The notes below the pieces were generated by a model, which saw nothing but the letters and a program-made list of their open reading frames with translations, did not search any database and had not been told where the DNA came from. From Nioella sediminis (lineage in GTDB: Bacteria > Pseudomonadota > Alphaproteobacteria > Rhodobacterales > Rhodobacteraceae): a stretch of 34,468 bases of DNA. A program made the translations under genes and the position numbers. The stretch's first letter is position 1; each line of letters opens with the position of its first letter. This document shows, in pieces, positions 15,338 through 20,139 of this stretch. The DNA is taken from the NCBI RefSeq assembly GCF_001879695.1, contig NZ_MNBL01000050.1:1-34468 (forward strand). Reading direction: 5' to 3'.

Positions 15338-16255
15338 TCAATCCTGCGCGACCATGGCGCAGGCAATTGCCGATGCAAGGCGGGCATTGTTCAGAACAAG
15401 GGCGATATTGGCCGTCAGAGACCGTCCTTCGGTCAGTTCGAATAGCCGCTGCAACAGGAAGGGTGTCACCGATTTGCCGCTGATCCCATGTGCATCGGCC
15501 TCAGCCTGGGCCTGCGCGATGATGGGGGCGAGGGTTTCGGCGGCGATCTCGTCGGATTCGGGAATCGGGTTCGCCACCAGTTGCCCCCCCGGCAAACCAA
15601 GCCGCCCGCGCATCATCGCAGAGGCGGCGATGTCCTCGGCCCTGTTCATCCTCAGCGGGGCGCTCAGGCCGGACTTGCGCGACCAGAAGGCCGGGAAATC
15701 GTCCTGTCCGAAGGCAATGACAGGCACGCCTTGCGTTTCCAGAACCTCCAGCGTCTTGGGGATGTCGAGTATGGCCTTGGCGCCAGCGGCCACGACCGTC
15801 ACGGGGGTTTGCGCCAGTTCCATCAGGTCGGCAGAGATATCGAAACTGTCCTCCGCCCCCTTGTGAACGCCCCCAATTCCACCCGTGGCAAAGACGCCTA
15901 TTCCCGCCAGATGTGCCGCGATCATCGTTGCGGCCACGGTGGTCGCCCCGGTCCGGCCCGTGGCCAGAGCCACCGCAAGATCGGCGCGGCTGAGCTTCAT
16001 CACGTTTTTGGCCTGCGCCAGCGCCTCCAGCTCCGTACTCGTCAGGCCCACATGCAAGCGTCCCTCAAGGATCGCAATCGTGGCAGGCAACGCCCCGGCG
16101 GCGCGCACCTCGTCCTCGACCTGGCGGGCGGTCTCCAGGTTCTGCGGGTAGGGCATGCCATGGGTGATGATGGTGCTTTCCAGCGCCACGATCGGGGCAT
16201 TGGTGGCGCGGGCCTCGGCCACTTCGGGCGAGAGGGTCAGATAATCAGGTGTCAT
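15338..16255 (-). CDS. psuG: Pseudouridine-5'-phosphate glycosidase
   Basis: A 305-residue enzyme that splits the C-C glycosidic bond of pseudouridine 5'-phosphate to uracil and ribose 5-phosphate. The family (also called IndA-like) is shown by PIVALESTIITHGMPYPQN near residue 21-39, LSRADLAVALATGRTGATTVAATM, FATGGIGGVHKGAEDSFDISADL and the C-terminal GKSVTPFLLQRLFELTEGRSL. The length matches the roughly 300-residue family. It starts three bases after the stop of the kinase gene, so the two form a kinase-glycosidase operon that recycles pseudouridine from RNA turnover. Confidence 0.92.
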   Translation of the reverse strand: MTPDYLTLSPEVAEARATNAPIVALESTIITHGMPYPQNLETARQVEDEVRAAGALPATIAILEGRLHVGLTSTELEALAQAKNVMKLSRADLAVALATGRTGATTVAATMIAAHLAGIGVFATGGIGGVHKGAEDSFDISADLMELAQTPVTVVAAGAKAILDIPKTLEVLETQGVPVIAFGQDDFPAFWSRKSGLSAPLRMNRAEDIAASAMMRGRLGLPGGQLVANPIPESDEIAAETLAPIIAQAQAEADAHGISGKSVTPFLLQRLFELTEGRSLTANIALVLNNARLASAIACAMVAQD

Positions 16256-16258
16256 GGG

Positions 16259-17140
16259 CTATCCGGCAACATATGTGGCGGCGGTCGTCAGCGCGTGGGC
16301 CAGTGCGACCTCGGGCGTGTCACCGCGGATTTCAGCGGCGATATGGGCCGCCATGAACGTGTCCCCGGCCCCGGTGATCCGGCGCGGGGTGATCTGCGGG
16401 GGCGCGAGCGAGAGGGTTCGATCAGGCGTCGCATCCACGGCCAGCCTGCCGCCATCGGTGACCAGCACCCGGCGCGCACCGGCGGCCAACAGCGCCTCGG
16501 CCCCGGTTTCGGCGCACCCGGTCGGGGCGCCTGAAATCAGCCCGGCCTCCTCGGCATTCACATAGATCGTGGCACCGGGATGGGACAGGAAGGGCCGCAG
16601 CCTTTCGGCCTTCCCGGGCGAGGCCGGGGCAAGCCGCAGATCAGCATGGGCGAACAGCGGGCTCTGCGCAATCCGGGTCAAAAGCTCAACCGTCAGGTTC
16701 CCGTCAATCGCCATCGGCCCCACCCATGGATCCTCGGCAGAGGCCAACCCGCCGTTTTCCAACGGCTCCAGAATCCGCGCGCCTGCGGTTTCCAGCGAAT
16801 GCGCATCGGCAAGTGCCGCCAGCAGCGTCCCCTGCGCTTCGATGGCCATGTATTGATCGGTCGGCAGATCGTGATCGACCAGCACATGGTCCACCTCGAT
16901 CCCCATACGCGCGCATTCCACCAGCAGCGCGGTGCCCGCCGCATCGTCGCCGACAACGCTCAGCAGCGAGGGCCGCAGCCCCTGCCCCACAAGCGTCATG
17001 GCAATATTCAGCGCCACCCCGCCAGGCAGGCGGGTGATGCGGCCGGGTTTGTCGTTCCCGGCCGCCATTGGCAGATCGGTGCGTCCGATGATGTCCCACA
17101 GGACGGACCCGATGCACAGGATGTCAGGGCGTTCTCTCAT
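16259..17140 (-). CDS. psuK: PfkB-family kinase, probable pseudouridine kinase
   Basis: A 293-residue ribokinase-fold enzyme. The N-terminus ILCIGSVLWDIIGRT and the GGVALNIAMTLVGQG region match the sugar-binding part of PfkB kinases. The C-terminal signature ITGAGDTFMAAHIA holds the catalytic aspartate and anion hole. Family membership is secure; the substrate is inferred from the adjacent psuG, since pseudouridine kinase supplies that enzyme's substrate. ATG 17140 is the first start in the frame with a weak GAGAG upstream. The gene precedes psuG by three bases. Confidence 0.85.
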   Translation of the reverse strand: MRERPDILCIGSVLWDIIGRTDLPMAAGNDKPGRITRLPGGVALNIAMTLVGQGLRPSLLSVVGDDAAGTALLVECARMGIEVDHVLVDHDLPTDQYMAIEAQGTLLAALADAHSLETAGARILEPLENGGLASAEDPWVGPMAIDGNLTVELLTRIAQSPLFAHADLRLAPASPGKAERLRPFLSHPGATIYVNAEEAGLISGAPTGCAETGAEALLAAGARRVLVTDGGRLAVDATPDRTLSLAPPQITPRRITGAGDTFMAAHIAAEIRGDTPEVALAHALTTAATYVAG

Positions 17141-17265: not shown

Positions 17266-19077
17266 TCATTCTTCCTCGTACCACCAGACATCGGGCTGGA
17301 ACCCCAACCAGTCGCCATAGATGGGCAGAGTTTCGGGAAAATGCAGCTCGCGCACATGGGCGATGCGGCTGACCGGAGAATACCAGATCGGGATGACATA
17401 ACGGCCAGAGGTCAGCACCCGGTCGAGCGCCCGCACGGCGGCACGATAGTCATCCTGGCTCTCTGCCGTCAGCATCTCGCCCACCATCGCCTCGATGGCC
17501 GGGTTGCAGACCCCCATCAGGTTGCGGCTGCCCTCCACATCGACCATGTCGCAGCCCCAATAGAGATACTGCTCATTGCCGGGCGACAACGACACGCCGC
17601 GCGCGAACCAGGTCATGTCGAAATCATAGGCGTCCGTGCGTTCCCGATACTGGGCGCTGTCGATGGTCGTCACCGTTGGCGTGATCCCGAGGCGAGACAG
17701 CGATTCCACGTAGATATTGATGATCGCCTGATTCTCGGCCGATCCCTGGCTCAGCACGATCTCGAAGGTGAAAGGCTGCCCGTCGGCCCCGGTCATGACG
17801 CCCTCCTGCACGGAATAGCCCGCCTCCTCCATCAGCCCCATGGCGGCACGGATGCCCGCCCGGTTGGCCTCGCGCCCATCCGAGACCGGGAACTCATAGC
17901 CCTCCAGCGCACCGGGCAGCAGGTCGCCCGCGAAAGGCTCCAGCAGTTCCAGCACCCGGCCCGTCGCCGCACCCGGCTCCATCCCGAGGATCGAGTTGGA
18001 GAAATACGACGTGATACGCGGCGCCAGCCCGCCATTCTGGGTCTGGTTTATGAATTCGTAGTTGAAGGCCTGGATCATCGCCTCGCGCACGCGCCAATCC
18101 TCGAACTGCGGCGAACGGGTGTTCATCACGAAGCCCCACATCCCCGTGGGCCGTTCATGCGGCACCTCCGACAGCACGACCTCACCCGATTGGACCCTAG
18201 GAAAATCGTAGTTGGTTTCCCAGTCGGCCGCATTGGTTTCGCGGATCGTGGTGATCTCGCCGGCTACGAAGGCCTCCCACATGGCGGTGCCGTCGCCGAA
18301 GAATTCCAGCCGGATCTCGTCGATCACATTGGTGCCCCGACGGAACGGCAGGTCAGCGCCCCAGTAATCGGGGTTGCGACGCAGCGACACGAAGCGCCCG
18401 GCCTCGAAATCGTCGATGACATATGGCGCGCTTGAGATCGGGATCGCGTCGATCCCGCTTTCGGTGAAATCACGCCCCTCCCATTGTGCCGCCTGAAGGA
18501 TTGGCCGCATCCCCATGATCAGCGCCAGTTCCCGGTCCGGTTCGCTGAAGCTGATCCGAACGCCGCGCTCTCCCACGGCCTCGATGCTGCTCACCCGGTT
18601 CCACGCGTTCAGGTATCGCGGATGCCCCTCGGTGCCGAGCGTCTCATAGGACCAGATCACATCTTCCACGGTCACCGGGCTGCCGTCCGAGAACCGGGCC
18701 TCGGGACGCAGTTGAAACTCGACCCAGGCCCCGCCTTCGCCGACCTCAACCGATTCGGCCAAAAGGCCGTAGAGCGTGAACGGTTCGTCCCATGATCGGC
18801 CCATAAGCGACTCATAAGCCAGGAACCGCAACTGCCACGGGGTCGATCCTGCGCGGATATGCGGGTTGAGGCTGTCGAAGCTGCCGACCTCTCCGGTCAC
18901 GATTCGCCCGCCTGTGGGGGCATCGGGGTTGGCATAGGGCAGATGCGCAAAATCTGGGGGCAAAGCGGGGTCGCCATACATAGCGATGCCATAGGACGGC
19001 TCTGCCGCGGCCCCGCCTGACAGAATCGCCATGACCCCGAAAACCGATGCAATCTGTCTGAAACAATTCCTGCTCAT
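17266..19077 (-). CDS. Extracellular solute-binding protein, family 5 (YejA-like peptide type)
   Basis: A protein of about 603 residues that would bind peptides or similar solutes in the periplasm for an ABC importer. A signal peptide is visible (SRNCFRQIASVFGVMAILSGGAAA, mature from EPSYGIAMYG). The mature start, with LPPDFAHLPYANPDAPTGGRI and GSFDSLNPHI, is typical of the YejA/microcin C type of SBP_bac_5. Further signatures are LRPEARFSDGSPVTVEDVIWSYE and the fold's C-terminal YWGCDMVDVEGSRN region. I chose ATG 19077. ATG 19116 is an alternative with AGGGAAGAG upstream and a longer N-region. No permease or ATPase gene is adjacent, so its transporter partners are elsewhere or missing. It diverges from the small-RNA candidate. 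Confidence 0.85.
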   Translation of the reverse strand: MSRNCFRQIASVFGVMAILSGGAAAEPSYGIAMYGDPALPPDFAHLPYANPDAPTGGRIVTGEVGSFDSLNPHIRAGSTPWQLRFLAYESLMGRSWDEPFTLYGLLAESVEVGEGGAWVEFQLRPEARFSDGSPVTVEDVIWSYETLGTEGHPRYLNAWNRVSSIEAVGERGVRISFSEPDRELALIMGMRPILQAAQWEGRDFTESGIDAIPISSAPYVIDDFEAGRFVSLRRNPDYWGADLPFRRGTNVIDEIRLEFFGDGTAMWEAFVAGEITTIRETNAADWETNYDFPRVQSGEVVLSEVPHERPTGMWGFVMNTRSPQFEDWRVREAMIQAFNYEFINQTQNGGLAPRITSYFSNSILGMEPGAATGRVLELLEPFAGDLLPGALEGYEFPVSDGREANRAGIRAAMGLMEEAGYSVQEGVMTGADGQPFTFEIVLSQGSAENQAIINIYVESLSRLGITPTVTTIDSAQYRERTDAYDFDMTWFARGVSLSPGNEQYLYWGCDMVDVEGSRNLMGVCNPAIEAMVGEMLTAESQDDYRAAVRALDRVLTSGRYVIPIWYSPVSRIAHVRELHFPETLPIYGDWLGFQPDVWWYEEE

Positions 19078-19155
19078 CTGTAAACAATCCCCTCGATGCC
19101 TTGTTTGCTTATCCATGACGCTACTCTTCCCTGAATTGCGTTTCAAACTTTTCGG

Positions 19156-19185
19156 TTGGACTCTGAGCAAGTGATTGCTTATAAA
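19156..19185 (+). promoter_or_regulatory. Sigma-70-type promoter of the small-RNA candidate
   Basis: TTGGAC (19156-19161) and TATAAA (19180-19185) are separated by 18 bases and each match the consensus at five of six positions or nearly so. This is one of the best promoters in the window. Transcription would begin near 19192. Confidence 0.7.
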
Positions 19186-19191
19186 GGATGC

Positions 19192-19268
19192 ACTGCTCGA
19201 TAGGTTTCTTGCCTGTATGAAACCTGCCTCAATAACTTAACGCCGGCTTCGTGCCGGCGTTTTTTTTT
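19192..19268 (+). ncRNA. Candidate small RNA of about 77 nt with two hairpins
   Basis: Downstream of a strong promoter lies a short transcript with no reading frame. Hairpin 1 is AGGTTTC (19202-19208) with GAAACCT (19219-19225), a perfect 7-base stem with loop TTGCCTGTAT. A single-stranded linker GCCTCAATAACTT follows. Hairpin 2 is the intrinsic terminator AACGCCGGC-TTCGT-GCCGGCGTT (19239-19261) with T-run to 19268. The nearest upstream plus-strand gene ends at 12215, beyond another terminator and 7 kb of opposite-strand genes, so the terminator has no other client. The layout is that of a trans-acting sRNA, possibly Hfq-bound given the U-tail. I do not recognise it as 6S, 4.5S, tmRNA or another standard RNA. 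Confidence 0.7.
19239..19268 (+). terminator. Intrinsic terminator with no upstream coding gene
   Basis: A perfect 9-base stem with a TTCGT loop is followed by eight consecutive T residues (19261-19268). It forms the 3' end of the small-RNA candidate and insulates bdhA, which starts 85 bases later. Confidence 0.92.
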
Positions 19269-19301
19269 GGTCCGGCTGCGCGGCTTTTGCCTCTGTCCAT
19301 A

Positions 19302-19353: not shown

Positions 19354-20139
19354 ATGGCCATTACCACTTCGCTTGCCGGAAAAACCGCCGTGATCACCGG
19401 ATCCAACTCAGGAATCGGTTTGGGAATCGCCCGTGAACTGGCCCGCGCCGGGGCGGATGTCGTGCTGAACTCCTTCACGGACCGCGACGAAGATCATGCC
19501 ATCGCGGCAGAGATCGCCGCGGAACACGGCGTCACGGCCCGCTATATCAAGGCGGACATGTCCAAGGGGGATGAGTGCCGCGCGCTGATCGAACAGGCCG
19601 GGGCCTGCGATATCCTGATCAACAATGCGGGCATCCAGCATGTCGAAGCCATCGACAAGTTCCCGGTCGAGAAATGGGATGCGATCATCGCGATCAATCT
19701 CAGCTCCGCCTTCCACACCACCGCTGCCGCCCTGCCGATGATGCGCGCCGCCGGTTGGGGACGGGTGATCAATATCGCCTCGGCCCATGGCCTGACCGCG
19801 AGCCCCTTTAAGTCCGCCTATATCGCCGCGAAGCACGGCATTGTCGGCCTGACCAAGACCACGGCGCTGGAAACGGCGGAGGAGCCGATCACGGCCAACG
19901 CAATCTGCCCCGGCTACGTGCTGACCCCGCTCGTTGAGGCGCAGATCCCCGACCAGATGAAGGCCCATAACATGGACCGCGACACGGTGGTGCGCGAGGT
20001 CATGCTGCTGCGCCAGCCGTCCCGCGAGTTTGCCACCGTCGAACAGATGGGCGGCACGGCGGCCTTCCTCTGCTCCGACGCGGCCGCCCAGATCACCGGC
20101 ACCACGATCAGCGTCGATGGCGGCTGGACGGCCCTCTGA
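19354..20139 (+). CDS. bdhA: D-3-hydroxybutyrate dehydrogenase (SDR family)
   Basis: A 261-residue short-chain dehydrogenase that interconverts D-3-hydroxybutyrate and acetoacetate with NAD, as in polyhydroxybutyrate turnover. The cofactor motif GSNSGIG is at residues 16-22, NNAG at 90-93, and the catalytic set is N115, S143, Y156 and K160 (SAHGLTASPFKSAYIAAKHG). The ASPFKSAY-AAKHG run and AICPGYVLTPLVEAQIPDQ are characteristic of 3-hydroxybutyrate dehydrogenases rather than generic SDRs. The ATG at 19354 follows CAGGAG by 6 bases. The longer frame from 19267 would start inside the terminator and is rejected. The patatin gene 111 bases downstream may share the pathway. Confidence 0.9.
   Translation: MAITTSLAGKTAVITGSNSGIGLGIARELARAGADVVLNSFTDRDEDHAIAAEIAAEHGVTARYIKADMSKGDECRALIEQAGACDILINNAGIQHVEAIDKFPVEKWDAIIAINLSSAFHTTAAALPMMRAAGWGRVINIASAHGLTASPFKSAYIAAKHGIVGLTKTTALETAEEPITANAICPGYVLTPLVEAQIPDQMKAHNMDRDTVVREVMLLRQPSREFATVEQMGGTAAFLCSDAAAQITGTTISVDGGWTAL

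Follow-up and report, generated by a model that had tools for sequence, protein, structure and literature searches.

A gene for a small regulatory RNA of about 75 nt very probably lies at positions 19191–19268 of the window, the 34,468-nt stretch of Nioella sediminis DNA analyzed here. Judged by sequence comparison, this sRNA is a core RNA of the Rhodobacteraceae. By computation, its invariant 5′ domain complements two sites in the leader of the mraZ/dcw (division and cell wall) mRNA; the sites come in antiparallel order, and the distance between them is conserved. We consider it rather likely that the RNA is a trans-acting core sRNA which acts as a clamp on both UpsM and the dcw leader and so changes their processing by RNase E. 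An earlier note on this DNA had proposed an unannotated small RNA here, and the results presented support an independent small-RNA gene, which has no Rfam match at gathering thresholds.

Anatomy of the sRNA Locus

The sRNA promoter (19156–19185, plus strand) consisted of TTGGAC at 19156–19161, an 18-nt spacer and TATAAA at 19180–19185. The earlier note had located these elements correctly, but its term "near-consensus" was generous, as TTGGAC agrees with only three of the six positions of TTGACA, and the promoter was absent from the list produced by a strict promoter scan. Among 143 distinct loci (of 150 rows) carrying the exact core, TTG was conserved at 92–100%, TATA at 99% and an upstream TCAAACTTTTA box at 85–100%, while most of the spacer varied, a pattern that makes the promoter credible. 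From the position of the -10 element and the beginning of the invariant block, the transcript is predicted to start near 19191–19192, giving a length of about 72–77 nt.

The 5′ tail (19192–19201) contains CTGCTCG at 19193–19199 and is followed by hairpin 1 (19202–19225), with arms AGGTTTC (19202–19208) and GAAACCT (19219–19225) around the 10-nt loop TTGCCTGTAT (19209–19218). Loop, 3′ arm and the next bases make up the stretch GCCTGTATGAAACCTGC (19211–19227). A single-stranded linker, GCCTCAATAACTT (19226–19238), leads to the intrinsic terminator (19239–19268), which has a 9-bp stem, AACGCCGGC/GCCGGCGTT, and a 5-nt loop within 19239–19261 and a T run extending as far as 19268; the stem was also found independently by a terminator scan. 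The perfect 7-base hairpin with its 10-base loop, the linker and the 9-base terminator thus all lay where they had been described. The region 19190–19269 folded at -27.1 kcal/mol (z -4.35), and none of 200 shuffles was equally stable, the minimum free energy structure of the fold started at 19190 being an alternative to hairpin 1. In the 48-nt 5′ domain beginning at 19191, hairpin 1 formed with a probability of 0.95. A two-state fold of this domain was rejected, hairpin 1 being dominant (-8.6 vs. -4.7 kcal/mol). A short coding frame opening with ATG at position 19218 was likewise discarded, as its start or frame was lost among diverged copies inspected by eye. As far as overlapping ORFs could be told apart, the ORF lists were compatible with minus-strand genes from 14.5 to 19.1 kb and with an end of the plus-strand genes near 11 kb, as would be expected if the plus strand is free of coding genes for 7 kb upstream.

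Distribution and Conservation

BLAST detected the sRNA in all six genomes of the genus and in 289 of 295 genomes drawn from the Rhodobacteraceae; completeness does not exceed 85% in four of the six family genomes without a match. When a covariance model was run with strict filters against 385 genomes of Alphaproteobacteria, it matched in five, all Rhodobacteraceae. An exact 47-mer of the sRNA occurred in at least 116 stretches, and from the names of the 80 matches listed we take these to be Rhodobacteraceae or wider alphaproteobacterial bins, with one exception. A record titled Nocardioides marinus (L111) has the exact 47-mer and is probably a mislabelled or contaminated assembly. The sRNA was also present at 88–90% identity in Paracoccus plasmid records of 1.5–2.2 Mb (NZ_CP038206.1, NZ_CP035287.1, CP038202.1, and NZ_CP038196.1). 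A minority of family genomes had two to three matches (three in G135), and paralogues may exist. A phage origin was rejected, as no match was found in phages or viral contigs.

Conservation was analyzed in an alignment of 42 chosen sequences. The loci fetched from the family were 29 of its weaker matches plus a single good match. The first 40 positions were all at least 90% conserved and 25 were invariant; GCCTCA was conserved in the linker, the remainder of which was variable. Hairpin 1 was paired in 99.7% of cells of the alignment and showed no covariation, because it hardly varies. Since structure alone would permit changes, the sequence letters themselves seem to be constrained. The terminator stem was replaced yet re-formed in all 42 sequences, at -13.6 to -21.9 kcal/mol. 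Loss of the promoter and hairpin 1 with retention of the terminator had been named as evidence against such a gene; the opposite was seen, diverged copies keeping the hairpin and the 5′ domain while the terminator changes.

The sRNA had no match in Rfam at gathering scores, the sub-threshold neighbors being BjrC1505, suhB, and SorX. Since Rfam lacks it, annotation based on Rfam misses the gene. No description of the RNA was found in the open-licence literature covered, and a list of 79 sRNAs of Rhodobacter sphaeroides (PMC8625941) may contain it. Short printed fragments of its sequence, one each, occurred in four papers that, by title, concern other subjects.

Complementarity to the mraZ/dcw Leader

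The target search across the genome consisted of a BLAST of the sRNA against its own genome, in which the best match after the sRNA gene itself was an antisense stretch of 19/20 positions upstream of the MraZ gene, i.e., in the dcw leader; with an E value of 0.78 this match is weak by itself. Leaders were then compared from 71 of the 95 genomes with a MraZ match (the 30 best, the R. sphaeroides-like genome and 40 of the other 64). Site 1 (GCAGGTTTCATACAGGC), the complement of 19211–19227, was found with at most two mismatches of 17 in 52 of the 71 leaders, vs. none of 71 shuffled leaders; here and in the two energy comparisons below, the shuffles preserved base composition but not dinucleotides. 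Its core, TTCATACAGGC, was exact in 56 leaders and within one mismatch in a total of 65, and was unpaired with a probability of 0.65 compared to a leader average of 0.43. Site 2 (CGAGCAG), which the 5′ tail complements, followed site 1 in 55 of the 71 leaders at a distance of 31–46 nt, with a mode of 37 nt. The 3′ part of the RNA meets the upstream site and the 5′ tail the downstream one, as antiparallel pairing requires. For the whole 5′ domain against the leader, the median duplex energy was -44.6 kcal/mol and z was below -3 in 63 of 71. When opening costs were included, pairing at site 1 in the 65 leaders with the core ranged from -21.2 to -2.1 kcal/mol; its median was -15.6 kcal/mol, vs. 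+7.2 kcal/mol for shuffled leaders. The loop, which the earlier note had put forward as a target-pairing region, is thus computed to complement a conserved block of the mraZ/dcw leader.

Six of the 71 leaders lacked the core, and in the genomes of two of these (G034 and G064) the sRNA seeds are changed too. In G034, 10 nt of the leader match the altered tail of that genome's sRNA, a match of a kind also seen in 3.1% of shuffles, and the overall pairing (z -1.64) is not significant; the variant sRNA of G064 pairs with its leader no better than the standard RNA. At most, compensatory change between sRNA and leader is suggested by these sequences. The leader is strongly conserved past site 2 (GACATCCCCCCAGGTG and beyond; e.g., L237, L255, and L269), which the sRNA does not explain. 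Site 2 is therefore weaker evidence than site 1 and may be kept for other reasons.

An own promoter, an intrinsic terminator with a U run and a conserved pairing region are features of Hfq-dependent trans-acting sRNAs, and all three are found here. Because of the U-run terminator, the RNA is probably bound by Hfq.

Position of the Sites Relative to UpsM

In R. sphaeroides, the dcw 5′ leader gives rise to the sRNA UpsM (RSs0682). According to PMC8307010, UpsM is highly abundant, and in exponential phase it occupies most of the Hfq that carries RNA. UpsM is the proposed partner or target of the window sRNA and not the same RNA. According to PMC6238624, an RNase E cut at 694,720 makes a 130-nt product from the 206-nt UpsM. 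The R. sphaeroides-like genome analyzed (G056) was taken for strain 2.4.1, because it reproduced the published coordinates of SorX and SorY to within 1 and 3 nt, respectively. In it the window sRNA maps to 1,444.0 kb, flanked by bdhA and the solute-binding-protein gene, while site 1 falls at 694,688–705 (one mismatch) and site 2 at 694,741–749. Provided that this genome is indeed R. sphaeroides, the two sites lie inside UpsM and flank the RNase E cut. A duplex-energy scan for partners of UpsM was swamped by G+C-rich stretches.

Neighboring Genes

Two genes served as context only: a family 5 solute-binding protein gene on the minus strand (17266–19077; PF00496) and bdhA, encoding 3-hydroxybutyrate dehydrogenase, on the plus strand (19354–20139; TIGR01963). 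Among 179 loci, in which some records were counted twice and some were cut by contig ends, the divergent solute-binding-protein gene adjoined the sRNA in 173 and bdhA lay downstream in 143, some of the others ending early at contig ends; neither neighbor was detected in four, within the 1.5 kb at hand. In several loci with more than 2.5 kb of downstream sequence (e.g., L112, L124, L125, L126, L129, and L131), bdhA was absent within 2.5 kb at ≥55% identity. Behind the solute-binding-protein gene, the window carries PfkB-family kinase and Indigoidine_A-family genes (15338–17140, minus strand), relatives of which also occur near bdhA at the R. sphaeroides-like locus; presumably they belong to pseudouridine metabolism.

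The solute-binding-protein gene has its own divergent promoter, TTGAAA-N17-TAGCGT (19118–19146, minus strand). The pattern TTGAAA-N17-TAnnnT, with its -35 element inside the upstream box, was found in 127 of 171 upstream regions compared to 0.7% in shuffles; the remaining 44 comprised 25 without the box, 16 without the -10 and three with another spacer. In the window, the two -35 elements stand back to back, 9 nt apart (19118–19161), and competition of the two promoters for polymerase, or a regulator common to both, is possible.

Complementarity between the sRNA and bdhA start regions was not above chance (142 regions, mean z -0.39), and the same was true of 146 predicted solute-binding-protein leaders (mean z 0.11). 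The solute-binding-protein leader was rejected as a target: a first mean z of -3.07 (171 regions) was an artefact, because the 80-nt region used had extended over sequence antisense to the sRNA gene. The role in nutrition or storage polymer (PHB) metabolism that had been read from the position of the gene was therefore not upheld, with several loci lacking bdhA within 2.5 kb downstream and neither neighbor's start complementary above chance.

Comparison With Known RNAs and Alternative Explanations

StsR (RSs0827) is the known RNA nearest in partner to the window sRNA. According to PMC8307010 and PMC11354728, binding of StsR to UpsM and to the dcw 5′ UTR leads to cleavage of UpsM by RNase E and to less dcw mRNA. 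StsR is under RpoHI/RpoHII control and represses rpoE, with which it pairs 10 nt downstream of the start codon; rpoE was not found in the stretches taken from the R. sphaeroides-like genome. That the window sRNA is the ortholog of StsR is nevertheless improbable. Both are small terminator-ended RNAs with UpsM and the dcw leader as partner, for the window sRNA by computation, and the strong complementarity is what an "sRNA targeting sRNA" would be expected to have. Moreover, StsR is 72 nt long (PMC8307010), as the window sRNA would be if counted from ACTGC to the fourth U of the run. Position speaks against orthology: since RSs numbers follow position, interpolation between RSs0682 (cut at 694,720) and RSs1624 (published start at 1,724,505) places RSs0827 near 853 kb, whereas the window sRNA lies at 1,444.0 kb, near number 1368. 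RSs1368 is presumably the name near that position. This scale would also fit the positions of CcsR1 (692.4 kb) and SorY (1,632.6 kb) if their numbers are RSs0680a and RSs1543; SorX is presumably RSs2461 and PcrZ RSs2430. The promoter is also not clearly of the RpoH type. RpoHI requires a T at -9 according to PMC3441632, and with TTG placed at -36 relative to the predicted start the sRNA promoter would have none. A terminator-tailed intergenic stretch at about 858.05–858.14 kb of the R. sphaeroides-like genome (G056:C4; L279, ~18050–18139) contains TTCACTGTCCC, which complements GGGACAGTGAA at the UpsM 5′ end. This 11-nt complement may be due to chance, and it is possible that the stretch is the StsR gene, a further point against orthology; in favor of orthology, a promoter and terminator scan of 780–920 kb recognized no RpoH-like promoter there and did not recover this candidate. 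Taken together, the window sRNA is probably distinct from StsR. A sponge relationship, in which the abundant UpsM titrates the window sRNA and the main targets are other mRNAs, is unlikely. The reported abundance of UpsM and its share of Hfq (PMC8307010) would suit it, as would the conserved linker GCCUC, which lies outside the site-1 pairing, but the own-genome BLAST gave no better antisense match, and a clamp that brackets the processing site would be needless for a plain sponge.

The remaining explanations concern the neighboring gene and the sub-threshold Rfam families. A cis-acting leader or attenuator of bdhA would account for the gene on the same strand downstream in those 143 of 179 loci, yet the RNA is not upstream of bdhA wherever it occurs: the loci without bdhA within 2.5 kb keep an intact RNA. 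As this explanation also leaves the 40-nt invariance and the dcw complementarity unaccounted for, we regard it as very unlikely. Kinship with mmgR/suhB, a PHB granule regulator, or with SorX is scarcely credible. Like the window sRNA, suhB/mmgR is an alphaproteobacterial sRNA with a 5′ hairpin, linker and terminator, SorX is of similar length and layout, and both gave sub-threshold matches (E 0.0092 for suhB and 0.0043 for SorX). However, the covariance scores were 23.8 bits against a cut-off of 41 for suhB (RF00519) and 22.3 bits against 46.6 for SorX (RF02784), and both RNAs have loci of their own. Genomes G009, G013, G020, G022, and G059 have suhB RNAs over the cut-off and carry the window sRNA at another place, and the R. 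sphaeroides-like genome has SorX, which was published as made from a 3′ UTR, at 2,598 kb and the window sRNA at 1,444 kb. suhB/mmgR RNAs above the Rfam cut-off were seen in eight of 61 family genomes (L221–L228).

UdsE (RSs2778) was considered and rejected. In PMC8625941 it is an R. sphaeroides sRNA with its own start site, placed in a 5′ UTR, and its 3′ end is given as "unknown" and not as a terminator. Against UdsE, the gene aqpZ (RSP_2782) lies 13 kb away; moreover, RSs numbers follow position and not RSP gene numbers, and the number of UdsE points far from 1,444 kb.

Proposed Mechanism and Implications

On the reading that we favor, a trans-acting clamp on UpsM and the dcw leader, the sRNA would be transcribed from a housekeeping-type promoter in competition with the back-to-back solute-binding-protein promoter. 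The loop of hairpin 1 would make the first contact, upon which the hairpin would open, so that loop and 3′ arm could pair with site 1 over about 17 nt. The 5′ tail, CUGCUCG, would pair with site 2 over 7 nt, about 37 nt of the leader being looped out. Such a clamp may hold the region of the RNase E cut single-stranded and alter the processing of UpsM and the dcw leader, most likely toward more cleavage and less dcw mRNA, the less likely alternative being protection of UpsM from cleavage. The RNA would then probably be like StsR in action and, by its position, a different RNA.

In R. sphaeroides, part of the control over cell division is exerted by the RNAs UpsM and StsR. More tentatively, and at slightly less than even odds, the gene may be viewed as an uncharacterised core sRNA of the Rhodobacteraceae whose roughly 40 invariant nt grip the dcw leader and UpsM as a two-handed clamp and hold open the RNase E site, making it a second division regulator beside StsR. 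As the promoter back to back with its own serves a peptide-type binding protein, there may be a tie between division and uptake. If this is true, the sRNA would be a general part of the RNA control over division in the Rhodobacteraceae and may help to control bacterial growth, and the reasons for the great length and frequent processing of the dcw leader would become directly testable in laboratory strains.
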